Below are positions 1 to 24,491 of a stretch of 27,913 nt of DNA, piece after piece (within the stretch, counting starts at the first letter, position 1; each line of letters starts with the position of its first letter). The DNA lies in IMG/VR virus record IMGVR_UViG_3300020171_000106, positions 1 through 27,913 of that record, one strand, 5' to 3'. Below the pieces are notes generated by a model that searched no databases, was not told where the DNA came from, and worked only from the letters and a program-made list of their open reading frames with translations. The translations under genes and the position numbers were made by a program. This DNA comes from a virus.

Positions 1-127
1 TGCCGTTAAAATCAATGGCGGAGATTACGCCACCCGTGATTGGTTCTTGCCCCCATAGATAGATAGCCCCTCCAATAAGGGTTGCTACGATTAAAATTGT
101 AGATATGATTATTGATTTGTTGGTCAT
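1..127 (-). CDS. Membrane-anchored hypothetical protein (partial, N-terminus)
   Basis: Only the first 42 codons lie in the window; the gene runs off the left edge. It begins MTNKSIIIS and continues with a hydrophobic stretch of about 20 residues (ILIVATLIGGAIYLW), so it is a signal anchor or signal peptide with the rest outside. A Gly/Ile-rich stretch follows. The gene is the next member of the minus-strand structural operon after the 494-aa fibre-like gene, separated from it by the inserted HNH gene and a hairpin-rich spacer. N-terminal anchors recur in this operon, so another surface or virion-associated protein is plausible, but function cannot be assigned. No strong Shine-Dalgarno (SD) sequence is seen before the ATG at 127. 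Confidence 0.6.
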   Translation of the reverse strand, partial: MTNKSIIISTILIVATLIGGAIYLWGQEPITGGVISAIDFNG

Positions 128-224: not shown

Positions 225-241
225 AATTGAAAGGAAAATTT

Positions 242-724
242 ATGATTAATTCAAAAGGACAATTTGTTAAAAGAATGGCTCCGTGGAATAAGGGTAAAAA
301 AATGATTCATTCAGGTAGTTTTAAGAAAGGTCATCCTCAATCTAATACTGGGAAAACTCATTTTAAGAAAGGACGAATATCAGAAAATAAGGGTAAAAAA
401 CTTTTATGTATTAGTGGGTATAAAAATCATAATTGGAAGGGTGGAACATACAAACATTCAAGCGGTTATATTATGTTATCAAGACCAAATCATTCACGAG
501 CAAGAAAACGAGGATATGTGAATAGAAGTATTTTAATAGCCGAAGTGATATTAGATAGAAAATTAAATAATAAAGAAATAATTCATCATATTGATGGAAA
601 TAAAACTAATGACAACCCTGATAATTTATATCTATTTTCTTCCAACTCAACACATATTAGTTATCATATGTTAAAAAATAAACCTCTATTAAAGAGCAAC
701 TTAACGACCCAGCTGCAAAGTTGA
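242..724 (+). CDS. HNH homing endonuclease with NUMOD-like N-terminal repeats
   Basis: A free-standing endonuclease of 160 aa. The start is set at ATG 242 because AAAGGA lies 6-7 bases upstream; a TTG at 227 would overlap that SD. The N-terminal third is very basic and repeats a (F)KKG / NKGKK pattern (NKGKK, FKKGH, FKKGR, NKGKK), like NUMOD3-type DNA-contacting modules. The HNH_3-like core is EIIHHIDGNKTNDNPDNL: the His pair near residues 115-116, Asp118, then Asn residues, with further His near 138 and 142. It nicks or cuts DNA at a homing site. It lies head-on in the structural operon, and its 3' end overlaps the end of the fibre-like gene by 24 bases, as expected for an invading mobile gene. 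Orientation and higher A+T set it apart from its neighbours. Confidence 0.88.
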   Translation: MINSKGQFVKRMAPWNKGKKMIHSGSFKKGHPQSNTGKTHFKKGRISENKGKKLLCISGYKNHNWKGGTYKHSSGYIMLSRPNHSRARKRGYVNRSILIAEVILDRKLNNKEIIHHIDGNKTNDNPDNLYLFSSNSTHISYHMLKNKPLLKSNLTTQLQS

Positions 725-2185
725 TGTGCCTACCCCCGTGCAAGATGTTTGACTCCAAGTTATAGCACCATCTAAAAGTGTTCCATAACTCCACCCCGCT
801 TTGTCTATATCTCTCACAACAATACATCCAGCTTGTGCCGCCCCGTCCGACCCCACAACAACATTCCCTGTTGTGGTCGCGTTGCCGTCTGTTGTTAGGT
901 TGCCCCCAATATGAGTATTGCCCTGAATATACATCGCGGTTGTGGTTACATAGCCCGTCACATCAAGAAATCCCCCAATATACATTGTATCGGTCGTTGT
1001 CGCCGAACCCATCGTCAGCCCAAAGGCGGTTGTGTCGGCGGCGGTATTAACCAAGAAAGCGTCGTCTACATTAAAAGTTGTTCCAACTAATGTTAAATTA
1101 GTCCCGCCTAAATATGTCGTGTTGTTGTCTACATAGTTAGTGGCGTGAATTGTCCCTGCTGAAGCACCCGTCCAGTCAATTACTTGACCAGCGGATAAAC
1201 CTATATCTGAATAATCTAAACTATGTGGATTGCCTGTGGTTACTTGTGAGTGAGTGTAAGCAGTATTCCAGTTTGTTTGATTATTAGTAAAACCGCTTAA
1301 TGTTGTTGTGGCATTATAAGTTGAAGCCCAATCAGTGGCGAAACTTGCCGCCGCATAATATCCTGCGATGCTGTGGTCGCCCCAGCCGTAAGCGGTATCA
1401 GCATAATTAAAATGTGTTTGAATTGTTGTAGAAGCGTTTATGTAATCCCGAACACGATTGTCTGTATAGTAAAGGTTAGTTCCTTCGGTTAAATCGCCTG
1501 TGTCTTGAATAGTCAACCAATAATCAAGCGAACTGGTGGCTCTTAAATCATCTACTTTTAAGGTAGTAATTGAAGACGAAGCGGTTAGCATTATTCCTTT
1601 GGTAGAAGTGGTAACCATAGCGTCTGCGGCAGCGTTGTATTCCCAAGCGGCTCCTCCGCCACTCCCTGATTGAGCGTTCCAAGATAAAACCCCCGAGCCG
1701 TCTGTTGTTAAAACATCGCTTGCGTTGCCGTCTGTGTTGGGGAACTGGTAAGCCCCGATTGTAAGAGAGTCCGAGATATAGAGGAATGTTGAACTGGCTT
1801 GCCTCATATTTACATTGTCCATTTCCGAAGTCCCGATAACTTCAAAGATTGCCGATGAGGTTGTTGCCGAACCGCCGATAAGTGTTTGTTCGGTTGTTGT
1901 TGAGCGGGTGAGGAGGGTGCTTTCGGCGCTATAAGACCAGCCCAACGCTCCGCCTGAACTTGCTGACCCACACGCCGCGGTTGTGATAGCCCCTGTTCCA
2001 TTTCCAATCAAACATTGACCACTTGTAAAGGTTGAAGCCCCAGTGCCACCATAGGGGACGGCTAATGTTGTTCCTGAAAGTATTGGTTTAACTGGTTCTG
2101 TTCTAAAAAAATCAGACCAAAAACCAGCACTCGCTGTTCCTGCTAAAAGTAATCCTAAAATTGTAATTAAAAAGTATTTTTTCAT
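701..2185 (-). CDS. Secreted, Thr/Ser-rich tail-fibre-like protein
   Basis: This 494-aa protein starts with a classic signal peptide (MKKYFLITILGLLLAGTASA, cleavage expected after ASA). The mature part opens with a phage-fibre-type module (AVPYGGTGASTFTSGQ, then GNGTGAITT) and continues with low-complexity beta-rich repeats such as TSTKGIMLTASSS and GNATTTGNVVVG. The C-terminus carries two Cys (AGCIVV, TSC). The overall style matches fibre/adhesin-like proteins common in Parcubacteria genomes and their phages (established pattern; the link here is inferred). Residues around 135-205 are paralogous to the 368-aa protein at 10964-12070, sharing YISDSLTIGAYQ and DAMVTTSTKG. A role in host adhesion is likely. 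An export signal in a virion gene is odd: the protein may instead go to the host surface. Its 3' end overlaps the HNH gene. Confidence 0.75.
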   Translation of the reverse strand: MKKYFLITILGLLLAGTASAGFWSDFFRTEPVKPILSGTTLAVPYGGTGASTFTSGQCLIGNGTGAITTAACGSASSGGALGWSYSAESTLLTRSTTTEQTLIGGSATTSSAIFEVIGTSEMDNVNMRQASSTFLYISDSLTIGAYQFPNTDGNASDVLTTDGSGVLSWNAQSGSGGGAAWEYNAAADAMVTTSTKGIMLTASSSITTLKVDDLRATSSLDYWLTIQDTGDLTEGTNLYYTDNRVRDYINASTTIQTHFNYADTAYGWGDHSIAGYYAAASFATDWASTYNATTTLSGFTNNQTNWNTAYTHSQVTTGNPHSLDYSDIGLSAGQVIDWTGASAGTIHATNYVDNNTTYLGGTNLTLVGTTFNVDDAFLVNTAADTTAFGLTMGSATTTDTMYIGGFLDVTGYVTTTAMYIQGNTHIGGNLTTDGNATTTGNVVVGSDGAAQAGCIVVRDIDKAGWSYGTLLDGAITWSQTSCTGVGTSTLQLGR

Positions 2186-3158: not shown

Positions 3159-6100
3159 AGACCTAAATCAAGGTCTAATCCTAAATCAAGGTCTAAGTCC
3201 AATCCTAAGTCCAAATCAAGTCCCTTAATTGTGGGCTTTTTCTTTTCTATCTTCTTGAACTGACTAACAGCGACAGGAGTAAATTGTTTTTTTAATCCTT
3301 CAACTCCAACTAACCCTTCTTTTGTTTTATATTCTTCCCATAATAAAATTGATGTTAGGTTGTCAGCTAAATCAAAAACAAATGACGCTACTCTTGGAAT
3401 TTGGAATAACATATTAGGGCTTAACGCTTGAATTAAAGTTGTTGCTTCTCTGTATGCTTTATTAATCATCTTGCCTATAAAACTATTATCGTCTTCATCT
3501 CTAATCATTCCAAATATCAACATCATAAACGCTGTAATTTCAACTAACCGATATAATTCTAACGCTGATTTTTTCCACGCTTCTGAACTAATCTTTTGTC
3601 CTGTTATTTTCTTTCCTACATTACCAAGATTTTTAATAGTGGTTCTCAAAATAGGAATAGCAAATTTTTTATATTGAGTATATATTTTTCCTTCTGGGGT
3701 TGCTCCAATAATAGATTTCATTCCCTCAACTATTCGGTATCTTCCAAGTTCTGTTCTTAAAGACGCTAATCTTTCTGGGATGATAATTCCTGATTGAAAT
3801 TCTTGTTTAGACAATGAGCCAAGTAAAAATGTTTTATTTGCTCTCGTTGAGGCGTCCCTAAATAATATAAAAATACCTTCCATTAACCTGTCGCCTGCTT
3901 CTTTTGCTGGTTCAACAAGTTCTCTCCACGGACTTTTACCAATAAAGTTGCGATACTTTTCTATGATTGCTTTTCCTTGTTTGGTGTTTTGTCTGATTTT
4001 ACCAAGTGCGTAATTCTTTTTACCAAGTAATTGATATGTTGTAATTTGTTCTCCAATTTCTGTCGCAACGCTAACTGGAATGTTAATACCCAAATCTCTT
4101 AATGAAGTAAACATTTTAATCGCTCTCAATGCTGCGTCTATTTTGCCGTTCTGCTTCGCAACCAATGTAATATGCCGTCCTTTTTGCGTATTGAGCCATT
4201 CCTTTGTAAATCTAATAAGGTTGCCGTGGAGTAGAAGCCCTTTTTTAGTTGTTCCTTTGGGAGTTAGTGAATGAGCATAAATATCAATCAACGGGACAAT
4301 CTCGTCCAGTGCTTGTTTCTTTTTAAATATCCGCATATAAGTCAGGAACGCTTTGACGGCATTCTCGGTTGGTTTAATTCCTCCTGTCCTTTTCATCGCA
4401 AACTTGAAAAACTTATCCATTGCCAAAACTTCGCCTGTCTCTCGGTCTAATATATTAAAGGACTGCTCCTCTAACTTATACGCTTCAAATACTTCTTTGA
4501 CCGCTTTAACAAGTCCGTCTTCTTTAATTGCTTCTAAAATCCCTCTCCTGATATGGGTAAAGTAATTTTGCTTGCCCATTTTCATCGCTTCAATTTGAAT
4601 AAGATAATTTCTGGCATTATCAAATTCTTTTGTCATATACTTAACAAGTTTTAACTCTGGGTCAGTCAGTTTAATTTCAAGTTTCTTTTCTGGCGTTGCT
4701 TCCATAAACTGCATAATTTTTTTATATTGTGGAATTAGTTTTTCTACAATAGTTCTTCCTTTAATCTTTTTAGCCAAAGCGAAAATTTCTTTTTCAATTT
4801 TAAGATATTCCGCTTCCGAGATAAGCATTCTTTTGGCTGGTTCTTCAACCATCATTTTATAAAAAGGATTGCGTTCAGCCAGTCCTGTGTCATATCTAAA
4901 CCTGTCAAATTCTGATACTTGAATGTTTTGTAATTCTTTAATAGATACGCCTAATTTTTTAGCCAATCGCTCTCTTGCTTCTCTCCAAGTTCGTATTCCT
5001 GCTAATTCTGTTCTATCAACTGTCTCTAATTTTCTAACTGATAAAAACTCATCGCCTTTTTGGAATGGTTTTAACGCTTCGTCAAGTGCCTTAATATCTT
5101 TGATTGTCATATTTGGCATTGTCGGAAGTTTCATCGCCTTGCGTAAATTCTCAACATTTAATTCTTTATCTCTGATTTGCTGGACTAATTCGTTCATTGC
5201 TTGTCGTCTCTCGGCAAATTTCTCTGCTTTTAATCTTATATCATCAATGAATTTCTTAAATTCAAAATTATCCATAAAACGAATATCGCGTTTGGTAATA
5301 CTTCGCAAATCTGTATCTGATAATCCAAAATGCTCTTTGACTGCTCTTAAACTCGCGCGGCGTCTTTGTAGAATATCTTTTGCTGTTTGTATTTTAGATA
5401 ATTTTGCTGATATGGTTTTTATCTTTGCTTCCAGTGATTTCACTTTGGCGGCGTCTGTCTGGACTTTTCTAATTTTGTTTAGATAAGATAAAGTTTTAGA
5501 TTTTGATGGTTCGCCTCTGACTGGTGCTTTGAATTTTGTTCTTGCTCCTTTTAGGTTTGAAATTGCTTCAAGTAATTCGTTTGTGCCTTCAAAATGAAAT
5601 CCATAAGGTTTTAATTGGTCAACCATTTCATCAAGAGCAGTCCCTTTCGTGTTAAGAAGATGTAAAGGAACATCGGTTTGAATTTCTTCTGCTATTCCGC
5701 CAGTTATTTTAATTCCGCCCTCTGCTTTAATTGCTCTTGTTAAATCACTTGTAAATTCTTTCTTGATTGCTTCCACTTCTTTTCTAACTTCAAGAGGAAT
5801 TTCTTCTGTTTGTAATACTTCAACAGGTTTTACCTTCGGCAACACTTCCTTAACTCCCTTAACTGCTTGGGTGTAGATGTCTGTTAGTTGGGATTTGGTT
5901 TTGATAGCATTTTTATTCCATATACCTATATTTTTAGCATACGGGATTTCTGCTGTGATTTGTCCATCATAACCTAATTTTCTTAAAACATTTTTTACTT
6001 CTGGAAGTTCAGCAAATAGTGCCTTACCGTCTTTGATACCTTGTATTATTCTTTCATTTGAATAAACAGCGTTAGAATTTGCTCCTTTAATTTCTGGAAT

Positions 6101-9078: not shown

Positions 9079-9531
9079 TTATTCTCCTCGATAAACTCCC
9101 TTTAATTGATATTCAATTACTAAAATAACTTCTCCTGTTCCTGATTTACTTCCAGCCGAGTAGAGGGTAACTGTGTCGCCTTTGGTAATATCTTTTTTGA
9201 GCAGGGTTAATTCTTTGGTATACCATTGGGCTTTGCTTGCTTCGCTTGTGCCTGAAAAATAATAATCATTGTCTGACTCCTTGCCTACTCTAATACCTAC
9301 TCCTCCATCAGCCGAACTTGCTTCGGTGTAGAGCAAGAAAGCCCTGACTAATTCAGCGTCTAATTCGGTGTGGAGGCATACAAGCGTGGTAGCCCCCCCT
9401 GAAAGGTCTGCTGCGACAGAAGTCCGAGCAATAAAACTTGGCTTGGTCTTTAATTGCTCATAGTCAATTTCCTGAACTTCTTGTTCTTTTTCTTCTTCTG
9501 GATATACAATTTTTCCTTCTTTAATTTCCAT
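9079..9531 (-). CDS. Small beta-rich virion protein, unassigned
   Basis: A 150-aa protein with an acidic Glu-rich N-terminus (about 1-28) followed by alternating hydrophobic beta strands (SFIARTSVAADLSGGATTLV, then VTLYSAGSKSGTGEVILVIE). No catalytic motif is seen. Its ATG overlaps the stop of the beta-propeller gene (TAATG), so the two are translationally coupled. The pattern fits a decoration or small tail protein. Function is not recognised. Confidence 0.6.
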   Translation of the reverse strand: MEIKEGKIVYPEEEKEQEVQEIDYEQLKTKPSFIARTSVAADLSGGATTLVCLHTELDAELVRAFLLYTEASSADGGVGIRVGKESDNDYYFSGTSEASKAQWYTKELTLLKKDITKGDTVTLYSAGSKSGTGEVILVIEYQLKGVYRGE

Positions 9532-10967
9532 TATATTGCGTTTTTATATGGTGTTCCCCAAACTTCAATCCTTCTAATTTTTACATTTCCAGCGTCAAAG
9601 TTAAGAACCAACTGGACATCTTCAACATCAAATGTGCCGTCTAATGTAATCCTGCTAACCGCCCCGTGTGTTGCGTAAGCGGCTGTTCCCCAATCAGTCG
9701 GAGCATCGTTGTAGTCGGAGTTAATATCTATATTAAGCGAGTCGCCTGACGCCAAATCTCTGCCTAAAATAAGTTTAATCATTTCAATTTTGGTCTTGTC
9801 TTTTAATTGAATAAAGTTTGTTTTTGCTGATAGTCCAGTCGCTCCGCCCGTGACCAAGTCCTGTCGGTAAAGTTTGTTGTCGTTTGTTGAAAAATAAACA
9901 GTGCCTCTCTTGGCGTTAGCGACTAATGCGTGAACGCCTTGTGAAGCCGCCCAACCAGTAAAAGGATTAAAAACAGCGTTTGAATATCCTGGAAGTGGAG
10001 AGCCGTAAGATGTGATTGTATTTCCTCTCCTGCCTACCAGTAATTGAGTGCCTTCTAAAACATCAACCGCGGAGTGTTGCCCATATAGGCAGTCCACGCC
10101 TTCCGCAACTTTAACTGGCGATGAACCATAACTAAATCTATAAATCCCCCCGCTTGTGACGGCATAGTTCCAACCGCCCATTTTTTTAATTGACGATATA
10201 TGGGCTTCTGGTATTCCAAATTCCCTGCTTGGATAATTAGAATAAGTATCCCAAAAAATAACTTTTGTTTTGCCCATCAACGAAACATCGCCCAAGTTTT
10301 GAGTAATCCCAGCGATTAAGAATTGTCCGTCATCAGAGAGGCAAGTTAAATTATATTCCGATTCAAGTGTTAAAACTTCTTGCGTAAAAACTGGGTTTAA
10401 GTTGCCCGAAATCATACTTATTCTATTCACATCTCCGACAAATAATCTCCCAGAGAATAAGTGGAGCGGGTGATAAGGAGAGTCGTTTAATGATGAACCC
10501 GTTGACCAATCATTATCCCACGATGAACTTGTATCAAAAGGGGCTGCTCCTGTTTCGGTGCACATTCCAATTTGAGTTGTTTGGGTGTAAAACAAATAAG
10601 TCCCATAAATCGCAATTCCGTTGGCGGGGTTGGCAATCTTGTTAGCCCCGCTTCGTTCGTTTGTAATGGCGTTCGTAAAGAGATTAACCACATAGAAATT
10701 TCCTTCATTGCCAAATAAGTAAAGATACCCAGTATTTGAAGCGGTTATTTGCGTAGCCCACGCCTTTATAACATCAACAACTACTGCTCCTGTCATATCT
10801 GTTGGTGCGGCGAATGTTTGAAGTAGTCCGAAGTCGTTGCTTGCTCTGCGAGGTGAAACACAAGGCGATACTCCATCAGCTGAAAAGAAAAGTCCCCGTA
10901 AGCCGTGCGATACCTCGCTTACTCCTGAAAGAAAATCTTTTGTGGTTAGTTCAAATAGTTTAATCAT
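9531..10967 (-). CDS. Beta-propeller-like tail/stabilisation protein
   Basis: The 478-aa protein consists of repeated short beta units of the kind found in propellers: GNEGNFYVVNLFTN, GIAIYGTYLFYTQ, GGWNYAVTSGGIYRFSYG and GTVYFSTNDNKLYRQDL. A C-terminal jelly-roll-like part carries strands such as VSRITLDGTFDVEDVQLVLN. There is no signal peptide. Podoviral tail hub or stabilisation proteins (P22 gp10-like) share this design and sit just behind the adaptor genes, as here. It starts in an ATGA overlap with the 368-aa fibre-like gene. The propeller call rests on repeat pattern alone. Confidence 0.6.
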   Translation of the reverse strand: MIKLFELTTKDFLSGVSEVSHGLRGLFFSADGVSPCVSPRRASNDFGLLQTFAAPTDMTGAVVVDVIKAWATQITASNTGYLYLFGNEGNFYVVNLFTNAITNERSGANKIANPANGIAIYGTYLFYTQTTQIGMCTETGAAPFDTSSSWDNDWSTGSSLNDSPYHPLHLFSGRLFVGDVNRISMISGNLNPVFTQEVLTLESEYNLTCLSDDGQFLIAGITQNLGDVSLMGKTKVIFWDTYSNYPSREFGIPEAHISSIKKMGGWNYAVTSGGIYRFSYGSSPVKVAEGVDCLYGQHSAVDVLEGTQLLVGRRGNTITSYGSPLPGYSNAVFNPFTGWAASQGVHALVANAKRGTVYFSTNDNKLYRQDLVTGGATGLSAKTNFIQLKDKTKIEMIKLILGRDLASGDSLNIDINSDYNDAPTDWGTAAYATHGAVSRITLDGTFDVEDVQLVLNFDAGNVKIRRIEVWGTPYKNAI

Positions 10968-12070
10968 TTAATTATTTGAATATCTACTGCTTGAAGTGAA
11001 GCAGCAGAGCCAGCACTACTTCCATCCGCAACTATTTCAAAAGTTTTATTAATAGCCGTATTTATTGTCATAGCAGTTGTAGAAGCAATGATTGGGTCTC
11101 CTGTTCTATCGGGCGAGCGGAATAATCTATAACTGATAATTTGAGCAGAAGAATTGTTTCTATTTCTAATATCTATATCAACTTCGTAGTTATTAGTGCC
11201 AGTAGTGTTAAAATCGGTTGTGCTGGCTATTGTTTCGCCACCAAATCTAAATCCAATAGTAATCCATCCACTTGACCCACTCACAGTTCCAATTGCTTTA
11301 ATTCTCGCAATTCCATTAACGCCCATATCTCCTCCTGTAATTGTCCTTGAAAATAAGGATGACTCAGATGTTCCTATATGTGTATCTGGTGTATTTGTAG
11401 AATAATAGGAAGTCAATCTGAATGTCCCGCCAACAGTTAAATCTCCTCCGAGATAAAGCGAACCTGTTGTGGTAGCAGAGCCGTCCACTCTAAAACTATT
11501 ATGAACTGTTGAAGAAGCAGTCATATAAAATCCTTTGGTAGAAGTGGTGACCATTGCGTCCGCTCCACTATTATATTCCCAAGATTGAGTGACCGTAGCC
11601 CCTAAATCTTCTTGCCAAGTTATTAGTCCACTACCATCTGTTTTGAGAACATAGTTAGCCGTTCCGTCTGTGTTTGGCAACTGGTAAGCCCCAATTGTCA
11701 AACTATCAGAGATGTAAAAAAATGTCGTTGTGGCGTTAGTAGCCGTAGCATTGCCAACTACATTCAAATTTCCTAACATTTTCAAACTCCCAATCGTTGA
11801 AGATGAAGTATCGCCTAAAATAATCCCAAAAGTAGGGCTTGATGAAGTGTAGAGATAATCAGACCCTGCCGACCAGTGGATAGCGTTGTTGAGATTAGCA
11901 AAGTTATTGTTGATAGTCGTTCGGCTGTCAGATATTTGGTCGGTTGATAGGATAGTGGTTACTGTCGCTCCGAACTCTTCTTCAAATTGATATTGATTTA
12001 TAAAAACAAAAAGTCCTAACGACAGACCAACCGATATTGCTACTAAACTTAAATACTTAATTATGTTCAT
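10964..12070 (-). CDS. Membrane-anchored fibre-like protein, paralogue of the 494-aa protein
   Basis: The 368-aa protein has an N-terminal hydrophobic anchor (YLSLVAISVGLSLGLFVFI), then DQISDSRTTINNNFANLN, a motif typical of phage fibre or appendage N-termini. A low-complexity Thr/Ser region (GNATATNATTTFF, GSATTTGSLYLGG) and a C-terminal beta sandwich with GWITIGFRFGGETIASTTD follow. Residues about 118-190 are paralogous to the 494-aa fibre-like protein (YISDSLTIGAYQ, then DGSG, then DAMVTTSTKG). It is flanked by ATGA overlaps on both sides, so it belongs to the operon. A membrane anchor in this position is unusual. It may be a host-surface or receptor-binding component. Confidence 0.7.
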   Translation of the reverse strand: MNIIKYLSLVAISVGLSLGLFVFINQYQFEEEFGATVTTILSTDQISDSRTTINNNFANLNNAIHWSAGSDYLYTSSSPTFGIILGDTSSSTIGSLKMLGNLNVVGNATATNATTTFFYISDSLTIGAYQLPNTDGTANYVLKTDGSGLITWQEDLGATVTQSWEYNSGADAMVTTSTKGFYMTASSTVHNSFRVDGSATTTGSLYLGGDLTVGGTFRLTSYYSTNTPDTHIGTSESSLFSRTITGGDMGVNGIARIKAIGTVSGSSGWITIGFRFGGETIASTTDFNTTGTNNYEVDIDIRNRNNSSAQIISYRLFRSPDRTGDPIIASTTAMTINTAINKTFEIVADGSSAGSAASLQAVDIQIIK

Positions 12071-12261
12071 TTTTTTGTTTGATTAGACCATTCCAATTCT
12101 GTTTCTAACTCGTCCCAAGTTTCGTCCACATCGTCCCAAGTTTTAGGTTGCGACTCTTTCCAAGTAAGTCCCGAACCGCTCTTAAAAGGTGTGTCAAAGT
12201 CAGTGCCTTCTACTTTTGTGGCGTTGGTTACTGTGGTTGTGTTTTTAGTGGAATTTGCCAT
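12067..12261 (-). CDS. Trp-rich acidic mini-protein
   Basis: A 64-aa protein with a Thr/Asn-rich N-terminus and a C-terminal half containing regularly spaced Trp residues (LTWKESQPKTWDDVDETWDE). Similar 'TWDDV..TWDE' proteins occur in phage tail operons (family knowledge, without a function known to me). The ATG follows GGGAAGATAG, which encodes the end of the adaptor gene and serves as SD. It ends in an ATGA overlap with the 368-aa gene. Confidence 0.6.
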   Translation of the reverse strand: MANSTKNTTTVTNATKVEGTDFDTPFKSGSGLTWKESQPKTWDDVDETWDELETELEWSNQTKK

Positions 12262-12262
12262 A

Positions 12263-12970
12263 CTATCTTCCCATTGGGACTTTCATTTTTATAATACTTT
12301 TTTTATCTTTTCCTCTATTGGCAAAATACTCTTTAATAAGTTGTTCGTCTTCTCTAATCATTGCCGCTATATCTCCCCTTTGCGGGAGGTTTTTTTCTAT
12401 GAGATATGGAAGCGAAGCCATACGACAAATATACGGGTGAAAGATTGATGGTATCCCGCATTCGGTGCTGGTGTCGGTGGATACAAACTTGACCACATTT
12501 CGCTTGAAGACGACTTTTAATCCAGCGGTTGAGGCGTAGTTTGGAATTGGGTCAAGCAGGAACGAGTGAGCAAACTTCTGATACCTTATTGGGGCTCCAC
12601 TGTTGCTTGAAGGAAGCGTCCAGATATTCTTGGCGTCATCGTCCATCATTCCTACTGGGACAAGTTCAACCCAATCACCTGCTGCCGCGTTTTTAGCGAG
12701 AACCTTTTGGACGACTAAAATCTCATCAGCAAACTCATAGTCCTGTTGTCCTGAAACAATATCGGCTGTTCCAATAGGTAGGTCGCCTTTATTGAGGTCG
12801 TCAAATGTCCAATTACCGTCTGCTACCAAAGCGATAGAGGCAAATCTATCTAATGCTTGGTTTATTCTGGCTGTCTTGGCTAATAGAGAATAGTTGTTGT
12901 TGTCAACTCCGCAAATGCGGTTGACTTCCTCTACTAACCCATCACTTGTTGCTGCGGCTGAAAAATACAT
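12263..12970 (-). CDS. Head-tail adaptor protein
   Basis: The 235-aa protein starts with helices (TARINQALDRFASIALVADG), followed by the layout typical of podoviral adaptors: NWTFDDLN, then QQDYEFADEILVVQKVLA, PIRYQKFAHSFLLDP, GLKVVFKRNVVKF and a C-terminal helical part with PSIFHPYICRMAS. Such proteins dock under the portal ring and form the start of the tail. Position just after the capsid gene agrees. Its leader carries no good SD but holds the interleaved inverted repeats behind the capsid stop, so expression may depend on that structure. Confidence 0.78.
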   Translation of the reverse strand: MYFSAAATSDGLVEEVNRICGVDNNNYSLLAKTARINQALDRFASIALVADGNWTFDDLNKGDLPIGTADIVSGQQDYEFADEILVVQKVLAKNAAAGDWVELVPVGMMDDDAKNIWTLPSSNSGAPIRYQKFAHSFLLDPIPNYASTAGLKVVFKRNVVKFVSTDTSTECGIPSIFHPYICRMASLPYLIEKNLPQRGDIAAMIREDEQLIKEYFANRGKDKKSIIKMKVPMGR

Positions 12971-12990
12971 AGTTTTATAGTTAAATTACT

Positions 12991-13033
12991 TTCAAGCCAT
13001 ATCGGGTTAAGCGGCTTGAACTGCCAACCCGAT
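12991..13033 (-). promoter_or_regulatory. Two interleaved perfect 8-bp inverted repeats after the capsid stop
   Basis: On the minus strand, ATCGGGTT pairs with AACCCGAT (13033-13026 with 13008-13001), and TTCAAGCC pairs with GGCTTGAA (13020-13013 with 12998-12991). The helices interleave. The first begins 8 bases after the capsid TAA. The linker between their 3' strands is 2 bases, so a full pseudoknot is strained and two alternative hairpins are more likely. This may set the capsid/adaptor ratio, protect the mRNA 3' end, or promote recoding. Confidence 0.6.
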
Positions 13034-13041
13034 AGGAGCAA

Positions 13042-13920
13042 TTACGCTACTGCTACATCAAACAAAACTGGTTTGTTCAGCGCCCAGCACTTGAACTCCC
13101 AATCCAACCTTGAAACAACCGCTACGCCAGAGATTGCTCCCTCGGCTGTCGCGGGTTCGTTGTCGTAAACGATTTGACCGTATGTGTCTTTGAGAACTCC
13201 CAAGTGGAACAACTTCTTCACACCTGCGAATAAGTGGTTTGCTGTGTGAGAGTTAGAAACATAATGGTCAACTCCCATATAGCGATAACCTTCGTCAATG
13301 CCGTTTTTAAGGGCAATATCAGCCAAGTTAAAGCCATTGGCCTGTGCAACTTGTTCCAAAATCTCGAAGTCGGCTGCTCTCCAAAGAATGAACACGCCCT
13401 TGCGAGCCATTAAATCTTTGCCGTTTGCTTCTCTGATTTCTCTCTTAATCCCGCGAATAATGTCGTCAATGTTAGACGCGTCAACTGTGATGTTTCCAGC
13501 AGACCCTCCAATAGAGGAGTTGTCAAAATCTGTCCACATCGCGTGGTTGGCTAACATATCGGTTTCAAGATATTCGTTGATTAACTGACCTTGAAGAACC
13601 GCCATATCCATCTGCTTGACATACTTACACTGAGCCAAATCTGCCCTGTCAATAATCATAGGAACAATCCTTGATTGATTGATGGTCACATATTCATTGG
13701 TAAGAGTGAAAAGTTGGTGGGTATAAACAGAACCTCTGGTGTGCGATGCCGCAGTTGGGATACTGGACATATACGGATTGTTGAAAACTCTCTCATTCGT
13801 ATATTCTACCCGACAAACTTCTTTCCAGTTTGTTGGATAGCCAAGTCGCTCCTGTAACTTCACAGACCAATCTTCTAAAAACACAGAACCTGTAAATGTA
13901 TTTGCAGCTTCTGATGCCAT
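13042..13920 (-). CDS. Major capsid protein (HK97-like fold, probable)
   Basis: The 292-aa protein is of typical capsid size. It opens with MASEAANTFTGSVFLEDWSV and has segments common in HK97-like capsid proteins: an early beta strand region (EVCRVEYTNERVFNNPY), YVTINQSRIVPMIIDRADLA (P-domain entry), the spine-helix-like region INEYLETDMLANHAMW, and a late IVYDNEPATAEGAISGVAVV leading to a beta C-terminus. AAAGGA 7 bases before the ATG is one of the best SDs in the operon, fitting high expression. It directly follows the scaffold gene and precedes the adaptor. I rely on order, length and pattern; no N-terminal propeptide cut is evident. Confidence 0.85.
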   Translation of the reverse strand: MASEAANTFTGSVFLEDWSVKLQERLGYPTNWKEVCRVEYTNERVFNNPYMSSIPTAASHTRGSVYTHQLFTLTNEYVTINQSRIVPMIIDRADLAQCKYVKQMDMAVLQGQLINEYLETDMLANHAMWTDFDNSSIGGSAGNITVDASNIDDIIRGIKREIREANGKDLMARKGVFILWRAADFEILEQVAQANGFNLADIALKNGIDEGYRYMGVDHYVSNSHTANHLFAGVKKLFHLGVLKDTYGQIVYDNEPATAEGAISGVAVVSRLDWEFKCWALNKPVLFDVAVA

Positions 13921-13970
13921 ATCTATATCCTTTCGTTATAGACAGAGGCATAGATTACCGACCTACTGCG

Positions 13971-14528
13971 CTATTTAGGCGCTCCAACAATAGGATTGCT
14001 GGAAAACGGATTTCCGTCCGTTTGAGATTTCAGTTTAGCGTTGACATATTCCTGACGAAGTTTTGGCTGGTCAGCGGGAGGCATTTCGCCTTTTGCTGTC
14101 CAGTATCCAACCTCATCTCGCGGAGAGGATGAAGGACTTCTTGTAGAAGATGGGGGAGTGGCTTCTTCTAACGCCTTTGTATCTCTCATCTTTTTTAATC
14201 CGTCCATAAAAAGTGTATCTTCTATTGTTTCATCCAAATCCTTGCCTAACGCTTTGGACACTTTTAATGCCCACTGATGCTCTTCTGTTCCCTTAATTCC
14301 GTTGGAAATAAGGAATGCCTTTTGCGCGTAATCAAGTTCGCCTTTGTCCGTCTTTGCCTTTGCTGGCTTTGACTCTTTAACCTCTGGCTTAACCTCTACT
14401 TTTTCAAGTTTGGTCTTTAAGCGTTTAGCAATGCCTTGGTTTTTAAGAGCCAATGCTTTCCAATCTGTATTTTCGTCTTCCTCTACTGGAAGTTCCTCAA
14501 TTACATCTTGGTCATTTTTTTCGTCCAT
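13971..14528 (-). CDS. Capsid scaffolding protein
   Basis: A 185-aa protein. The N-terminus is very acidic (DEKNDQDVIEELPVEEDEN), the middle is Lys/Glu-rich coiled coil (AKRLKTKLEKVEVKPEVKES), and a Ser/Pro-rich linker leads to a short C-terminal helix (QPKLRQEYVNAKLKSQT). This composition and a position directly before the major capsid gene are typical of scaffolds, which fill the procapsid and leave on DNA packaging. No protease gene is seen nearby, so it probably exits or is cut by host enzymes. Confidence 0.8.
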   Translation of the reverse strand: MDEKNDQDVIEELPVEEDENTDWKALALKNQGIAKRLKTKLEKVEVKPEVKESKPAKAKTDKGELDYAQKAFLISNGIKGTEEHQWALKVSKALGKDLDETIEDTLFMDGLKKMRDTKALEEATPPSSTRSPSSSPRDEVGYWTAKGEMPPADQPKLRQEYVNAKLKSQTDGNPFSSNPIVGAPK

Positions 14529-14623
14529 AAATGATAATGGTAATCAATTTCTAAAATTGAGAAATCGCAATTTTAAATGGATTGAGAACCACGAATTAAT
14601 TTTTAATGGGAATAATAACCCAA

Positions 14624-15430
14624 TTACTTCTGATAAATTACATCACCGTAAAACATACCTTTGAAGTTTATCGCGTCTCCTGTGGTAAGAGCATCTGATG
14701 ATGTCGCTCCACCTACTCCTGATGCGGAAATAACTAACGCTGTCCCAGCAGGAATAAACAACGGGCTGGTTGTTGACCTTCTGGTCGTTCCTCCGCCAGC
14801 CAGAGTATCAAAGAATGAACCGATAGTTGTAGTCGCTTTATTTCCTTCTACTCCTGTGCCAACATAAACTCGGTCTGCATAACCCCAAACATCAAAGGAA
14901 ACATTATCTGTGCTTGTAGCAATTTTTGAATTAGCAACCATAGTTCTGGTGGTGGTGTTTGTTAAGGAACTGACTCCTGGTGAAAATCTTGAACCGCTTG
15001 TTAAGGTAGTTGTTCCAATCCCAAAATCACCAAAACCAGAGTCATCGTTCTGTTCGGTAATTGCCCATCCCCAGTTATAGAGGAATACATCTTCTGCGAA
15101 CAAATGTGTTCCGAGAACTAAATCTGTTTGAGCGGTTGATGTGGCACTTTGGTATCTTAATGGGATACTAAGAGATGCTCCAGTATATCCATCGTGAAAT
15201 CTTATTGCCTCATAAATATCTGGACCTGAAAACACTCCGACTGTTAAATCCTCAACCTCATCGCTCATTACTTCTGCGGTAAGATTATCAGCTAATTTCT
15301 CGCCTGCGTATTTGCCGATGATTTCTTTTAGAGACAATCCTGCGTTAGCCACAAAGACACCCGCTAAAAGAACGCATAAAACTGAAACTGCTAATACTGT
15401 ATATTTACTTACTGACTTTTTTTTAATCAT
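14624..15430 (-). CDS. Secreted Thr/Ser-rich protein of unknown function
   Basis: The 268-aa protein carries a clear signal peptide (basic start MIKKKSVSK, core VLAVSVLCVLLAGVFV, cleavage after VANA). The mature part alternates beta strands with Thr-rich turns (IGTTTLTSG, TNTTTRTMVA, KATTTIGSF), a style common in Parcubacteria secreted proteins. Its ATG overlaps the stop of the 48-aa basic gene (TAATG). It lies between portal and scaffold genes, where phages do not usually encode secreted proteins. It may coat the host surface, block superinfection or form part of a membrane-assembled virion structure. None of these is proven. Confidence 0.65.
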   Translation of the reverse strand: MIKKKSVSKYTVLAVSVLCVLLAGVFVANAGLSLKEIIGKYAGEKLADNLTAEVMSDEVEDLTVGVFSGPDIYEAIRFHDGYTGASLSIPLRYQSATSTAQTDLVLGTHLFAEDVFLYNWGWAITEQNDDSGFGDFGIGTTTLTSGSRFSPGVSSLTNTTTRTMVANSKIATSTDNVSFDVWGYADRVYVGTGVEGNKATTTIGSFFDTLAGGGTTRRSTTSPLFIPAGTALVISASGVGGATSSDALTTGDAINFKGMFYGDVIYQK

Positions 15431-15576
15431 TATTTCTTTCCTTTTTTCTTTCCTTTTATCTCGACCTTTACAAAGGTTTTTGCCTTTTTCAATTTTTTAA
15501 CTACAACTTCCTTAACCGCTTCTGCTCTTGTCTTGAACTTTTCCTTGAATGAACCTGACATTTTTGGTGGTAACAT
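15430..15576 (-). CDS. 48-aa strongly basic protein
   Basis: A small gene found by reading the gap between two longer genes. It starts MLPPKMSGSFKEKFKTRAEA and ends KVEIKGKKKGKK. About 17 of 48 residues are Lys or Arg, so nucleic-acid or membrane-phosphate binding is plausible. It is sandwiched: its ATG lies one base after the stop of the 137-aa gene, and its TAA overlaps the ATG of the secreted 268-aa gene. Such packing makes it very likely real. Function is unknown. Confidence 0.7.
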   Translation of the reverse strand: MLPPKMSGSFKEKFKTRAEAVKEVVVKKLKKAKTFVKVEIKGKKKGKK

Positions 15577-15577
15577 A

Positions 15578-15991
15578 TTATTTGTAAGTTATTACTACTT
15601 GACCATTGAATCCCGACGAAGATTCAATTATTAAACCCCTACTTGCCGCTAAATCAAACGAATATGTCATTTCATCTGCCGCTGCTGGGAAACTTACAAT
15701 TGTGGTTGAAGCGATGTCAGTGGTTGAAGTTGCGTTCTTTAACTGGAATGACGCAGCCGATGAACTGGCAATTGTGACATATCCTAAAATCGTTTGTCCT
15801 GTCTTGACTTGTGAAACCTTCGTTGAAGCGAAAGTGGTAGAACTGGCAATAGCGTAAGAATAGATTGAATTTCCTCCTAAATCTGGCTCAACTGGATACT
15901 CATTCTTAAAAGCTCTGTAAGTGAAGATGCTTACCGCAGAGATGACTATTACTAATACTATGATTATTGTTCCTAATGATATTTTATTCAT
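15578..15991 (-). CDS. Membrane-anchored Ser/Thr-rich small protein
   Basis: The 137-aa protein has an N-terminal transmembrane anchor (GTIIIVLVIVISAVSIFTY) and an outer beta-rich part (TILGYVTIASSSAASFQLKN, TEDI-free Thr/Ser turns, then GLIIESSSGFNGQVVITYK). The start has GAAAGGA about 7 bases upstream. The topology resembles small pseudopilin-like or surface proteins, but no prepilin cleavage motif is seen. It lies just after the 113-aa gene and is coupled to the 48-aa gene. Unknown function; possibly part of a set with the secreted 268-aa product. Confidence 0.65.
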   Translation of the reverse strand: MNKISLGTIIIVLVIVISAVSIFTYRAFKNEYPVEPDLGGNSIYSYAIASSTTFASTKVSQVKTGQTILGYVTIASSSAASFQLKNATSTTDIASTTIVSFPAAADEMTYSFDLAASRGLIIESSSGFNGQVVITYK

Positions 15992-16014: not shown

Positions 16015-16356
16015 TTACCGACCTGGATTGCTCTTTAACTTGTTGGGTTCTTCCTTTTCTTTAAACTTTTCTAATTCCTCAAACCCTAATCCGACAAGGT
16101 TAGTTCCTTCCCATACCGCGCATAAATCCGCTCCTATTTGTTCGTTGGTTAAATGAGTAAATCCGGACATCCTGCGTCTGGCGGCTAAACCAAAAGCGTA
16201 ATTCATATCTGGGTCAATTGGCTCGCCTTCTTTGAGCGTGCCTTGTGTGTAAACCATTTCCATTAAAACCTTTTTAACTGCCTCAAAGAGAACTTTGTTT
16301 GATACAAACTTCATTATTTCTTTTTCTTCTACTTCGTTGAGATATTTTTTTATCAT
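16015..16356 (-). CDS. Hypothetical 113-aa protein next to portal
   Basis: A mostly helical soluble protein with a charged N-terminus (YLNEVEEKEIMKFVSNKVLF), a central GEPIDPDMNYAFGLAARRRM and an acidic Lys/Glu end finishing NPGR. It starts in an ATGA overlap with the portal stop, so it is translationally coupled. Small portal-adjacent genes are often head-completion or connector proteins, but nothing specific is recognised. Its last residues NPGR are the same as those of TerL. Confidence 0.6.
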   Translation of the reverse strand: MIKKYLNEVEEKEIMKFVSNKVLFEAVKKVLMEMVYTQGTLKEGEPIDPDMNYAFGLAARRRMSGFTHLTNEQIGADLCAVWEGTNLVGLGFEELEKFKEKEEPNKLKSNPGR

Positions 16357-18107
16357 AATTGTTTAGTTGGTTGATTAGTTGGTTGTTGAATTTGTTGTTG
16401 TCCTGTTAAATCCGTAAAGTCCATTGGCTCTAAATCGCTGGTAGTGAGAATTTGATTGAAAAGTTTATTCATAGACGGGATTTGGAGGATTTGAGGATTT
16501 GAGGCGATTGTCCTAAATACATTTGAAAGTTTGTCGGCTTGCTCTAAGAGATTTTTCTGTTTTCCAGCGACATTGATTTTAATCTTAACGGAAATATCTT
16601 TAAGTTCGTCTTTTAGTATCTCAATAAATCTCTTGTTGCCGCCTTTCATAAACTCTTCTTGTTTGAGTAATCCGTATGCTTCTGCTTGTTCTTGGGTAAC
16701 TGCCTTGCCGCTTAAAATCTTTTCTTTGATGTATTTGTTGCGTTCAATGATTGATACATTTTCAGCAATCATTTGGAGTTCTTCCAGTGATAATTCTGAT
16801 AAAAACTTCGCTCCCTGCGTAATCTGCTTGACGATATAGGGGATAATCCAATCCTTGTAAACCTCTTCAACCCATTTGGCGAATTTGCCTCTGCGATATT
16901 CGTGGATGCCCTTACCCTCCATTACGACTCTTTCTTGTAATCTAAATGGCGTTCCAGCAGTGGGCGACTCTCCAAGTAGTGGGTCGGTGGCTGAACCTAA
17001 CCTTTGAGCGTGTGCTTCCCAATCAGCGACTGACCTTTCAAAGAGAGATATATTTCGCGGGTAAGTGTCTAAAACCTGAACCTGACTGCCTTTTTCGTAT
17101 TCAAGGAACTCCATATTGTCCATATCTTTCATTCCTGCGGGGTGTTTGGCTGCGACTGTCGGGTCGTCTGTGATGATAATTGTCTTGGAGGCAGAGTCCA
17201 AAAACTCTTTCTTTACGACTTCTCCGTAATTAGTCCAGATTTGGGGCTCCATCATTTCCTCTATTCCTCCCCAACCTAATGACCTGTTAAAGATTTCTTC
17301 GGTCGTTGCCATCTTGAATGGGTCTTTTTCTTCTTTGCGGTAAAGGATAAGTCCTTGTCTTTCGTCTTTTTCGTCCTTGTAGAATGTGGCAAGAACCATC
17401 TGTTGCTTATATTCGTCGTGTTCTTGGCGTTGGTCGTCTAAATACTCTTTCGGCAATACTCCGTGGACTTCGTAAACTTTAATATCGGGTCCTGGAATAT
17501 CCCCCTTGTCGTTGGCTACAATGCGGATAAGTTCGTCAATCGTGGTTGTCGCTCCATTCTCTGGACTTCCCCAGCCCTTCTTTTCAAATTCTTTTAGTTG
17601 CGATGGCGAGTATTTGTGGAGAATTCCAATCGGGGCGTTAAGCATATCTGATTGGTCGCAAAAGGCGATACTCTCTAATGGCACATATTCGGGCTTGCCT
17701 TTGCCGATACTCTTGGCTAATCCTCCTCCTAAGTCAATCTTGGACTCTTTTACTTTGTCAAAGAATGTGTCTAAATCGTTTTCAATCACATAAACATCAT
17801 CGTGGTATTTCTTGACGAGAAATGAGAGGTGATAGAGTTCTGGGTCGTCTATGTAGAGGACGATGTCTTTAATGTCTATGTCTTCCGCCCTGTATTTCAG
17901 GTTGAGAATGGGTCGCATTATATTCTTGACGGGGACTTCGTTGATTGTGCCCTTCTTCTTGTCGCCTCGGATGTTGGAGTTCTTGTAAATAGCCCTGTCC
18001 TCAATGTGTTCTCGCATACTCCACCACCACACATCGTTGATTTGGATTTGTTTTTTATATTTATTTTCCTCTTGGGTGATAAATTCAAAGATATCTTTTG
18101 CTCTCAT
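16353..18107 (-). CDS. Portal protein (podovirus-like)
   Basis: The 584-aa product is of typical portal length. N-terminal helices (FEFITQEENKYKKQIQINDV) lead to a region with VPVKNIMRPILNLKYRAED, then a stem/crown architecture with SVADWEAHAQRLGSATDPLL, GTPFRLQERVVMEGKG and the helical C-terminal part FAKWVEEVYKDWIIPYIVKQ. It ends in a Gln/Pro/Thr tail, as many portals do. Portals form the dodecameric DNA entry ring that binds TerL and the adaptor. Its ATG overlaps the stop of the 90-aa gene and its own TGA overlaps the next gene. Location between TerL and capsid genes confirms the call. Confidence 0.85.
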   Translation of the reverse strand: MRAKDIFEFITQEENKYKKQIQINDVWWWSMREHIEDRAIYKNSNIRGDKKKGTINEVPVKNIMRPILNLKYRAEDIDIKDIVLYIDDPELYHLSFLVKKYHDDVYVIENDLDTFFDKVKESKIDLGGGLAKSIGKGKPEYVPLESIAFCDQSDMLNAPIGILHKYSPSQLKEFEKKGWGSPENGATTTIDELIRIVANDKGDIPGPDIKVYEVHGVLPKEYLDDQRQEHDEYKQQMVLATFYKDEKDERQGLILYRKEEKDPFKMATTEEIFNRSLGWGGIEEMMEPQIWTNYGEVVKKEFLDSASKTIIITDDPTVAAKHPAGMKDMDNMEFLEYEKGSQVQVLDTYPRNISLFERSVADWEAHAQRLGSATDPLLGESPTAGTPFRLQERVVMEGKGIHEYRRGKFAKWVEEVYKDWIIPYIVKQITQGAKFLSELSLEELQMIAENVSIIERNKYIKEKILSGKAVTQEQAEAYGLLKQEEFMKGGNKRFIEILKDELKDISVKIKINVAGKQKNLLEQADKLSNVFRTIASNPQILQIPSMNKLFNQILTTSDLEPMDFTDLTGQQQIQQPTNQPTKQL

Positions 18108-18391: not shown

Positions 18392-18475
18392 TCATTTTTT
18401 AGGGCTTGTATTAGACAAATATGCTCGGAAATACGGGGTTATATCAATTAGAAAACTGAATGGCTTATCTATCAT
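18392..18475 (-). CDS. Possible 27-aa peptide behind TerL
   Basis: An ATGA overlap with the TerL stop opens a short frame starting MIDKPFSFLIDITPYFRAYL and ending SPKK. GGAAG just upstream could act as SD. It fills an otherwise empty 95-base gap. The tight coupling supports it, but the length makes chance possible. Confidence 0.35.
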   Translation of the reverse strand: MIDKPFSFLIDITPYFRAYLSNTSPKK

Positions 18476-19686
18476 CTTCCTGGATTGGGCTTTGATTGTT
18501 TTTGAAATAATGGCAGTTTATTGATAAAATCTCTTCTGTTGATAATAGGGGCTAATGATGTGATAGCATATCTGGCAGCATCTAAGAAGTGTCCCGCTCC
18601 GTCTGTGTCGCTGTTGTCTATTCTGCCGTTCTTATCTACTAACCATAGATAGTTTCTATACTCTTTAATTCCGTTGACGCTTCGCTTAGTGATGCTTATC
18701 CTTTGTTCTTGTAAGACGCTTATTCCATACTTCTTTGAATCTCTTCCTTTCTCGCAAGGGAAGATTGATATGCCATAACCTTTAATTTCGTCTATGCTTT
18801 TAGGTTCAGCGCTATCAGCAACTGTCATTGCTGGTTTGAGGTTTTTAAGTATATCAACTATTCCTTTGTTTAATAGTCCTTTTTGGTAAGTAATTTCATC
18901 TAAAATATAACCTCCGTTGTAGTAATAGATTGCCGTAATGGCTGTTGGGTCTCCTGAATATCCGAAATCAACTCCATATCGTTCTAACCTTGCTTCGTGG
19001 GGTATTTCATTAATTATCTTCCAATCCCTAAATATCTTGCCTTCTACTTCGCCCAATAGCCCTAATCCATATACTTTCCACCATCCTTCTCTGTTTTTTC
19101 TTTGTTCTATACTATCAACAACTCTTTGGTCTAATGCTTCATTGTCTTTGTATGTTAGGATTAATTGCTCGCAATCGTTTCTGTTTGGAATTACTTCTGT
19201 AAATACCCAAAATTCGTTTGTTGGGTTGTAGTCAATAAATATAAACTCTTTGGTTCTGACTTCTAACTGTTCAAAAGCGTCAAATGGGATATTGTTGGCT
19301 TCGTTAATGAACAATCTATCTCTTCTTGCTCCTCTTAATTTGTCTGGCTGGTCTACTGAAAAGAACTCTATCTTGCTTCCTGTTTCAAATGTGTAAGTAA
19401 ATTCTGTCTTGCTCCATAATCTATCTTTGAAATAGTTTAACTCTTTCATTATCAGCAAGAAATCTTTCATTGCTCCTCGTCTTAAATGGGGGAATGACTC
19501 GGAACAAATACTTGTTAAGGTTGGTTTTTTGTCTCTTAACGCGGAGTCAATTAAATAAAATACAATACTGAATGTCTTACTCGCTGATGTTCCGCCTTGT
19601 ATTATTCTAATTCGTTTCTTTAGTTTGCGTATTTTCTCCGTCCCCGTCGTTATTCCTATTTTTCCTTGTTCGTTTGACATAATCAA
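18472..19686 (-). CDS. terL: Terminase large subunit
   Basis: The 404-aa packaging motor couples ATP hydrolysis to DNA translocation and cuts concatemers. Visible motifs: Walker A variant GGTSASKT at 31-38; Walker B RLFINEAN at 124-131 with the catalytic Glu; coupling motif IDYNPT at 151-156; RNase H-like nuclease with Asp in VDFGYSGDPTA (239-249), Asp291 in VADSAEP and Asp369 in FLDAARYA. It is compact compared with many TerL proteins (about 420-550 aa) but all parts are present. The ATG lies 80 bases inside the TerS candidate gene. A GGAGGT occurs about 20 bases upstream, rather far for an SD. C-terminus NPGR. Confidence 0.93.
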   Translation of the reverse strand: MIMSNEQGKIGITTGTEKIRKLKKRIRIIQGGTSASKTFSIVFYLIDSALRDKKPTLTSICSESFPHLRRGAMKDFLLIMKELNYFKDRLWSKTEFTYTFETGSKIEFFSVDQPDKLRGARRDRLFINEANNIPFDAFEQLEVRTKEFIFIDYNPTNEFWVFTEVIPNRNDCEQLILTYKDNEALDQRVVDSIEQRKNREGWWKVYGLGLLGEVEGKIFRDWKIINEIPHEARLERYGVDFGYSGDPTAITAIYYYNGGYILDEITYQKGLLNKGIVDILKNLKPAMTVADSAEPKSIDEIKGYGISIFPCEKGRDSKKYGISVLQEQRISITKRSVNGIKEYRNYLWLVDKNGRIDNSDTDGAGHFLDAARYAITSLAPIINRRDFINKLPLFQKQSKPNPGR

Positions 19687-20451: not shown

Positions 20452-21135
20452 TTAAGTGCTCTTTAAAATATGAATAACATAAGATAATAATGTCTTTAAT
20501 GGTGCTTTGTCTGATTTTTGTAAATTATCTTTTCTTGATAGGGGTTGTAAGTTATTTAAAGACCAACACATTTTAAAATCTGGACTTTCTGAATTATTAA
20601 TACTAAACCAAGATTGAGGGATAATGTGGTCTATGTGCCAGTAAGAGCCGTGATTATTCCAAGACATTTTGGGAGTAAATTGCTTTTTGAGATGAGATTT
20701 TAATTCTTGTAATGTATAACCAACTAAATCCTGCCATCTTAGATTATTCTTGTTTTCTTTAAGTGCGGCGTAGATACTACTGCTCATAGTGTGATTTAAG
20801 CGATATTTTTTCCTGTATTTCTTAGCATATTCTCTATTCCATTTTTTTCTCTTTGCTGTTTGGTTGTGTTTTATCCTATTTATTCTGCGTTTTTCTTTAA
20901 CATCATCTCTTTGACTATAACTTTTATGATACTCTTGACCAACTACTGTATTATACCACTCTCTATTACTTTTATTTTTCTTTTCGCGGTTAATCGGAAT
21001 GCTATAATATAATCTTTTACATTCTTTCCGACAAGATTTACACCAACAACACAAACCGTCTTTAGTTCTACTATTTTTAACGAATAAATCAACAGATAAA
21101 TTACTATGGCATCTTGAACAAAATTTATATTTCAT
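20452..21135 (-). CDS. HNH endonuclease with N-terminal zinc ribbon
   Basis: A 227-aa protein. The N-terminal domain has CSRC at 6-9 and CC.C..C at 29-35, a zinc-binding finger. A very basic middle (about 75-115, many Lys/Arg/Tyr) should bind DNA. The C-terminal HNH core is WHIDHIIPQSWF (His167, Asp169, His170), WSLNNLQPLSRKDN (Asn194/195, Asn204). HNH proteins next to terminase genes are often needed for packaging-related cutting, or are homing endonucleases. The Lys-rich finger plus HNH layout is shared with group I intron/free-standing homing enzymes. It sits upstream of the packaging genes in the same direction. Confidence 0.88.
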   Translation of the reverse strand: MKYKFCSRCHSNLSVDLFVKNSRTKDGLCCWCKSCRKECKRLYYSIPINREKKNKSNREWYNTVVGQEYHKSYSQRDDVKEKRRINRIKHNQTAKRKKWNREYAKKYRKKYRLNHTMSSSIYAALKENKNNLRWQDLVGYTLQELKSHLKKQFTPKMSWNNHGSYWHIDHIIPQSWFSINNSESPDFKMCWSLNNLQPLSRKDNLQKSDKAPLKTLLSYVIHILKST

Positions 21136-23942: not shown

Positions 23943-24491
23943 TTATCTCCAACATTTTTCCGATTGACTCCACCGCCAAAATTCTCCTTCACTCATCATC
24001 CAAATTGCGGCATTTATATTATCTTGGATATTATGTGGAGAAAATATAACTGGCGAACTATTTGAGAAATGAACAGCAATACCCTCATCTGGAAAAGTTG
24101 TTAAGAATATACCGCCTCGTTCTATAACCATTCGTTCTATTGTTTCTCTAAAAGTTCCCATAACTATCTGATAAATTCCTATCCCAGCGATACAGCCATA
24201 CTGGTAATTACAAACATTCTTAAACTGACTTTCACATTCTGCTATTTTTAGGGCAAGATTTGGGTCAACTTCATAAAATCTTGCTGCTCTTATAATATAT
24301 TCTTTTATATCTTCGGTTGTCATCTCGTTGTATTCTTCAACGGGCGGTTCTACCACTTTCGCCTGCTTCTCTTTTAAGATGTTAGCATATTCAAAATCAA
24401 AACTGTCCGCGGCTTGATACGCTTGGAAGATGAGGTAGGCGTTGATTAGGGTAAGGATTAGGCAGATGGTGATTAGGATTTTGTATTTCAT
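23943..24491 (-). CDS. Membrane-anchored lytic transglycosylase (SLT-like)
   Basis: The 182-aa protein has an N-terminal anchor (ILITICLILTLINAYLIF), a linker, then an SLT-type lysozyme-like domain: FYEVDPNLALKIAECESQF with catalytic Glu87 in the ES motif, GIGIYQIVMGTFRETI (the 'G..Q....T' strand), and DNINAAIWMMSEGEFWRWSQ near the end, with Cys pairs. It would cleave peptidoglycan for lysis, or for entry if packaged. The 33-aa TM peptide gene overlaps its start, giving a compact lysis set. Its C-terminal pattern is common in CPR transglycosylases (inference). Confidence 0.85.
   Translation of the reverse strand: MKYKILITICLILTLINAYLIFQAYQAADSFDFEYANILKEKQAKVVEPPVEEYNEMTTEDIKEYIIRAARFYEVDPNLALKIAECESQFKNVCNYQYGCIAGIGIYQIVMGTFRETIERMVIERGGIFLTTFPDEGIAVHFSNSSPVIFSPHNIQDNINAAIWMMSEGEFWRWSQSEKCWR

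Follow-up and report, generated by a model that had tools for sequence, protein, structure and literature searches.

In the appendage slots of their virion operons, a short-tailed phage and its relatives encode proteins with N-terminal signal peptides or membrane anchors, and we conclude that these are virion-appendage-type proteins turned exported, not unrelated surface genes. The phage is represented by the virus record IMGVR_UViG_3300020171_000106, a stretch of 27,913 bases that was analysed over its full length (hereafter, the window). A preliminary description of this DNA had ascribed a signal peptide or anchor to each of the 137-, 268-, 368- and 494-aa products, and all four open reading frames proved to be as described; the range in which it placed them (10964-15991) is correct for the first three and not for the 494-aa gene, which lies outside it (Table 1). 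The fifth such protein that it placed at the left edge was also found, starting at base 127 and running out of the window.

The minus strand of the window has a short-tailed-phage gene arrangement, in the order TerS, TerL, 90 aa, portal, 113 aa, 137 aa, 268 aa, scaffold-like 185 aa, capsid 292 aa, SU10-type connector 235 aa, and then 64, 368, 478, 150, 515, 1474, 266 and 494 aa. TerL, TerS and the connector were assigned by family matches, and the portal, scaffold and capsid by position and conservation; neither portal nor capsid has a Pfam match, and the two are co-conserved across 83 loci. TerL carries a nuclease domain (PF04466, E 1e-10; PF17288, E 3e-10; phrog_2, E 3e-30), and by this large terminase the phage is classified as a predicted tailed dsDNA phage (Caudoviricetes). 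We refer to the space between the 113-aa and scaffold genes, which holds the 137- and 268-aa genes, as slot A, to that between the connector and the 478-aa gene, which holds the 368-aa gene, as slot B, and to the tail-fibre end of the operon, which holds the 494-aa gene, as the tail slot. Capsid-protein searches led to 80 viral loci and one species-genome locus, and no relatives were found among 50,697 deposited phages in searches with the capsid, portal, 85-, 87-, 368- and 494-aa proteins. The C-terminus of the giant 1474-aa internal protein (window 3155-3300) is a run of Gly-Leu-Asp-Leu-Asp repeats (GLDLDLGLDLDL...). Two HNH-like ORFs of homing endonuclease type, recognized by eye, lie on either side of the virion region (227-724, plus strand; 20452-21135, minus strand), the former beyond the tail-fibre gene and on the opposite strand.

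Table 1. Features of the window, in order of position.
Feature	Coordinates	Strand	Remarks
Fifth anchored protein, N-terminus only (MTNKSIIISTILIVATLIGGAIYLWG...)	1..127	-	cut by window edge
494-aa exported tail-fibre-like protein	701..2185	-	cleavable-type signal peptide, GGTG motif
478-aa cytosolic tail protein	9531..10967	-	ATGA overlap with 368-aa gene
368-aa anchored fibre-like protein	10964..12070	-	anchor, linker and FGATVTTI...DSRTTINNNFANLN N-terminal domain
64-aa cytosolic partner gene	12067..12261	-	directly upstream of slot-B fibre, ATGA overlap
235-aa head-tail connector	12263..12970	-	SU10_adaptor PF24175
292-aa major capsid protein	13042..13920	-	by position and conservation; without Pfam match
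185-aa scaffold-like protein	13971..14528	-	by position
268-aa exported protein	14624..15430	-	slot A, second gene; family signal-bearing in all relatives found
137-aa anchored jelly-roll protein	15578..15991	-	TM helix 6-29, flexible linker, 8-strand domain 48-136
113-aa cytosolic protein, upstream border of slot A	16015..16356	-	
584-aa portal protein	16353..18107	-	by position and conservation
Terminase large subunit	18472..19686	-	PF04466, PF17288
182-aa signal-anchored transglycosylase (SLT)	23943..24491	-	exported but not appendage type

Signals were called with a hydrophobic-stretch heuristic, controlled with shuffled sequences and reference phages. All four window proteins have a positive n-region followed by an N-terminal hydrophobic stretch with a core of at least 13 residues, which makes them putative Sec-exported proteins, with translocation and cleavage predicted. 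The N-termini of the 494-aa (MKKYFLITILGLLLAGTASA/GF) and 268-aa (...VLCVLLAGVFVANA/GL boundary) products are of the cleavable type, those of the 137- and 368-aa products look like uncleaved anchors, and no lipobox was seen by eye in any of the four. Across 83 related phage loci, the heuristic called no signal among approximately 560 core virion proteins (among them TerL 0/28, portal 0/68, 113-aa 0/74, scaffold 0/83, capsid 0/83, connector 0/75, 478-aa 0/41 and 515-aa 0/37). The observation extends beyond the window to the slots of related phages, where signals were called in 97 of 158 slot-A ORFs (4/158 after shuffling) and in 13 of 73 slot-B ORFs. The virion operons of lambda, T7, SU10 and P-SSP7 gave a single call among 66 proteins, lambda Lom, which is a known exported protein, and the earlier statement that virion proteins of tailed phages normally have no such signals is therefore right for these controls. 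Since calls are absent from the core, rare after shuffling and limited to Lom in the reference phages, we consider the signals specific to the appendage slots. In two relatives (L021 and L023) slot A is expanded and holds some nine ORFs with signals, of small or large size.

Two of the four proteins can be traced to cytosolic homologues. The AlphaFold2 model of the 137-aa protein (mean pLDDT 83) consists of the N-terminal helix, a disordered linker and an eight-stranded jelly roll. A profile of this protein, iterated within the slots only, matched cytosolic slot-A proteins of 84-92 aa from sister phages (E 1e-20 to 1e-33), the reverse search with a profile begun from a cytosolic slot-A protein recovered the 137-aa protein (E 1e-19), and in the alignment one domain is common to both forms, with or without anchor and linker. 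Loci in which a homologue was found have one form each and none has both, and whole-record searches gave mostly a single match per phage; because each locus holds one or the other, the exported form replaces the cytosolic form and is not a duplicate of it. Fold comparison of the modelled ectodomain with VIA-align gave matches at Z 6-8 to viral turrets, cement proteins, Ena pili, XepA/YomS and carbohydrate-binding modules, middling scores that identify a fold but no function; turrets and cement proteins reached Z 7.3-8.3, with carbohydrate-binding modules and nucleoplasmins just below. Foldseek gave no PDB match to the model below E 0.001, PDB sequence searches gave chance-like matches only, and with Z values only middling we do not claim the protein as a member of the STIV turret or Ena pilus families. 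The model is that of a small jelly roll encoded in the head module, as in turret and cement proteins, and a presence in the virion is putative. Jelly rolls of this kind (HFTV1 turret base, KHP40, BPP-1 cement) resemble the 137-aa protein in the fold of its ectodomain (HFTV1 8qpg_TD: Z 7.4, rmsd 2.8, 89 aligned, 21% identity) and in the place of its gene in the head module, and the sister-phage homologues of the window protein are cytosolic; the window protein differs from them in its membrane anchor and linker. The HFTV1 turret base protein inserts into capsid hexamers (PMC12494034), and binding of the 137-aa protein to the capsid is putative.

The second homology is that of the slot-B fibre. 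Cytosolic slot-B fibres (L009, L040, L077, L081) start at MSTITTI or a close variant and read MSTITTI...SRxxINTNFxNLN, and anchored ones (window, L014, L015, L059, L045 and others) read [anchor]-linker-LGATITTI...SRxxINTNFxNLN, with [LF]G[AS]TITTI after the anchor, so that the 368-aa fibre is, as judged from its sequence, a cytosolic fibre with an added anchor. Exported and cytosolic types alike have a cytosolic gene of 62-88 aa immediately before the fibre gene. Instead of a docking end, the INTNF domain could be an element for trimerisation. The slot-B alignment yielded no conserved stretch usable for scanning. The 368-aa gene shares a module with the 494-aa gene (window 1595-1789) at 69% DNA identity, which suggests that these two exported fibre genes are linked by exchange or by duplication.

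The 268-aa protein belongs to a family with a short signature, LGAxPGPDxY, after the anchor, which a scan of viral contigs detected at 51 loci, and a signal or anchor was present in all 33 distinct relatives read. These relatives include phages whose capsid is remotely or not detectably related; in seven of them (whole or partial records) exported proteins adjoin the capsid gene, and in most of the seven a further exported protein, a long one, is encoded in the tail-fibre region or close to it. For the family itself no cytosolic counterpart was found, and the cytosolic second proteins of slot A, considered as homologues, gave no match by profile comparison; the structure model (mean pLDDT 47.7) was unusable. 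In the tail slot, the 494-aa product and several counterparts elsewhere are long, exported and provided with GGTG motifs, and no exported proteins of tail-fibre kind were found in the cytosolic-type records G006, G011, G016, G017, G020 and G021 contig 165. The 494- and 368-aa proteins resemble GGTG-repeat tail fibres (phrog_31660 and similar) in sequence type and position, to which they add the N-terminal signal peptide or anchor.

Of 104 non-redundant exported proteins, 27, a minority, have a short motif, [LFV]G[AGS], no more than 20 residues past the hydrophobic stretch; among background windows it was found in 58 of 775 (p 1.6e-7). The motif likewise follows lipobox-like N-termini, and in slot B its position is exactly the start position of the cytosolic homologues. 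It may be a processing site on one reading, or the conserved start of the folded domain on another. The idea that translation also starts at the motif and yields a cytosolic isoform was rejected because few motif codons could serve as start codons (TTG makes up only 4 of the 44 Leu codons there) and Shine-Dalgarno sequences are not enriched. LGA- or FGA-like motifs after lipobox-like N-termini were seen in a 525-aa protein of L003 (13403-14980) and in 527- and 430-aa proteins of G005 (200-1813, 3403-4695).

On the capsid tree, the state of any export in slot A requires nine changes; taken for the 137-aa homologues alone, the anchored/cytosolic label requires four changes, at least two of them forced by well-supported branches, and is strongly clustered. 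Export in slot A was compared with export downstream (11/4/0/11), giving a Fisher p=0.0002 before any relatedness correction, and p=0.125 once corrected for the tree, where only four independent pairs put significance out of reach; phages with export in the head slot tend to have it downstream as well. The gene arrangement argues against a lysogenic-conversion moron of the Lom/Bor type, that is, an autonomous and separately transcribed insert in a temperate phage, because the genes have ATGA overlaps with their operon neighbours and lie in conserved slots, and integrases are scarce: the window gave no match to an integrase or resolvase, and a tyrosine integrase exceeded the cut-off in 4 of 22 records.

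The CPR (Patescibacteria) host assumed in the preliminary description is putative. A pattern search of limited reach through 84,980 species genomes led to a single relative, a cytosolic-type contig of a Methylococcaceae MAG, with a GC of 0.38 for the phage contig vs 0.43-0.46 in three other contigs of the same MAG. TGA is the stop of 6 of the 29 window genes, and the UGA=Gly code used by some CPR lineages is therefore not in use here. Shine-Dalgarno sequences are not enriched in the clade, where they precede 17 of 378 starts of the genes for capsid, scaffold, portal, connector and the 113-aa protein, compared with 15 in shuffles, and the host lineage may be one without Shine-Dalgarno use. tRNA genes, sought as a host hint, numbered one across 20 loci. 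Two relatives, L161 (IMGVR_UViG_2710723508) and L083 (IMGVR_UViG_2811995110), have genome-type IMG identifiers.

The preliminary description had proposed display on the cell surface, and export to that surface, as predicted from the signals, is well supported. The proteins do not come from foreign surface genes brought into the operon, the 137- and 368-aa proteins being anchored homologues of cytosolic slot proteins; because of this homology, and because the 494-aa protein is tail-fibre-like, the exported set leans to phage appendages over mimics of host pili or link proteins. Our tentative preference, at somewhat below an even chance, is that a whole appendage set (jelly roll, second head-module protein, side fibre and tail fibre) is exported and meets virions outside the cytoplasm. 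From the N-terminal signals, the conserved slots, the homology of the 137- and 368-aa proteins, the operon position and the co-occurrence, we infer a course of export, anchoring and docking in which the host Sec machinery would export the appendages late in infection, anchors would keep them on the outer face of the membrane of the infected cell, and their virion-docking ends would be retained; with docking ends kept and capsids built in the cytoplasm, contact would be possible only at release. Progeny might then pick up the appendages, either after cleavage near [LFV]G[AGS] or with the anchor still attached, or the appendages might hold progeny at the cell remnant. A meeting with virions is favoured by the replacement of cytosolic forms by exported ones, by the conserved fibre N-terminus and by the common small partner gene, and the viral turret and cement proteins among the best-fitting folds of the 137-aa domain also count for appendages. 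The literature searched gave no precedent for a tailed phage or a CPR phage that exports virion proteins. That several tailed-phage lineages, perhaps with ultra-small CPR hosts in common, finish their virions outside the cytoplasm through Sec export, anchoring and cleavage near [LFV]G[AGS] at release is a broader claim that we regard as unlikely.

Close behind, and almost as likely as a meeting with virions, is pure surface display, in which the proteins would never be in virions and would coat the cell for receptor masking, exclusion, prevention of sticking to debris or a change in adhesion. No tailed phage is known to us to complete its assembly outside the cytoplasm, which favours a coat alone, as do the uncleaved anchors of the 137- and 368-aa proteins, which have no obvious signal-peptidase site, and the precedent of XepA; the lipobox-like N-termini of L003 and G005 also fit. 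Lambda Lom, an exported product of the tail region encoded among virion genes and caught by the same heuristic, is a further parallel, but it is a single gene, whereas several slots are exported together in the window, and we know of no cytosolic virion homologue of Lom. T5 Llp-type superinfection-exclusion lipoproteins are exported and encoded near receptor-binding genes as well, but the window proteins are without a lipobox, much larger and fibre-like. Against display alone, anchored forms take the place of cytosolic ones in the same slots, so that the virion would lack them, and the N-terminal fibre domain and the partner gene are conserved. XepA of the Bacillus prophage PBSX, which like YomS of SPbeta has a fold similar to that of the 137-aa protein (Z 7.3-7.5), is exported as the phage develops and does not occur in the particles (PMC6834076). 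This resemblance and the late-operon position could also point to XepA-type lysis or envelope-weakening factors, expressed late, a role that we hold to be very improbable: XepA is cytotoxic and belongs to a lytic cassette, whereas the window genes occupy head and tail slots common to cytosolic homologues and have signals or anchors, the 368- and 494-aa sequences are of fibre type, and the same genome encodes a separate anchored transglycosylase. Slightly less improbable is that the hydrophobic N-terminus serves a virion lipid layer or membrane-tethered head assembly, as would suit slot-A genes lying between portal and scaffold, or adjoining the capsid gene, in several lineages, and the TM helix retained in 33/33 members of the 268-aa family; cleavable-type signals (494- and 268-aa proteins of the window; L008, L018, L043) would, however, leave no anchor, and no precedent was found in the literature on tailed phages.

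As far as is known, tailed phages assemble their virions in the cytoplasm, and a virus that is built inside the cell and yet ships parts of itself outside is a puzzle. Appendage genes that all have export signals would mean either that the rule of cytoplasmic assembly is broken, or that a late programme coats the cell with phage adhesins. Assembly outside the cytoplasm, if true, would amount to an extracellular last step of tailed-phage assembly, and for testing the question directly the sister phages offer natural pairs of homologues, one exported and one cytosolic.
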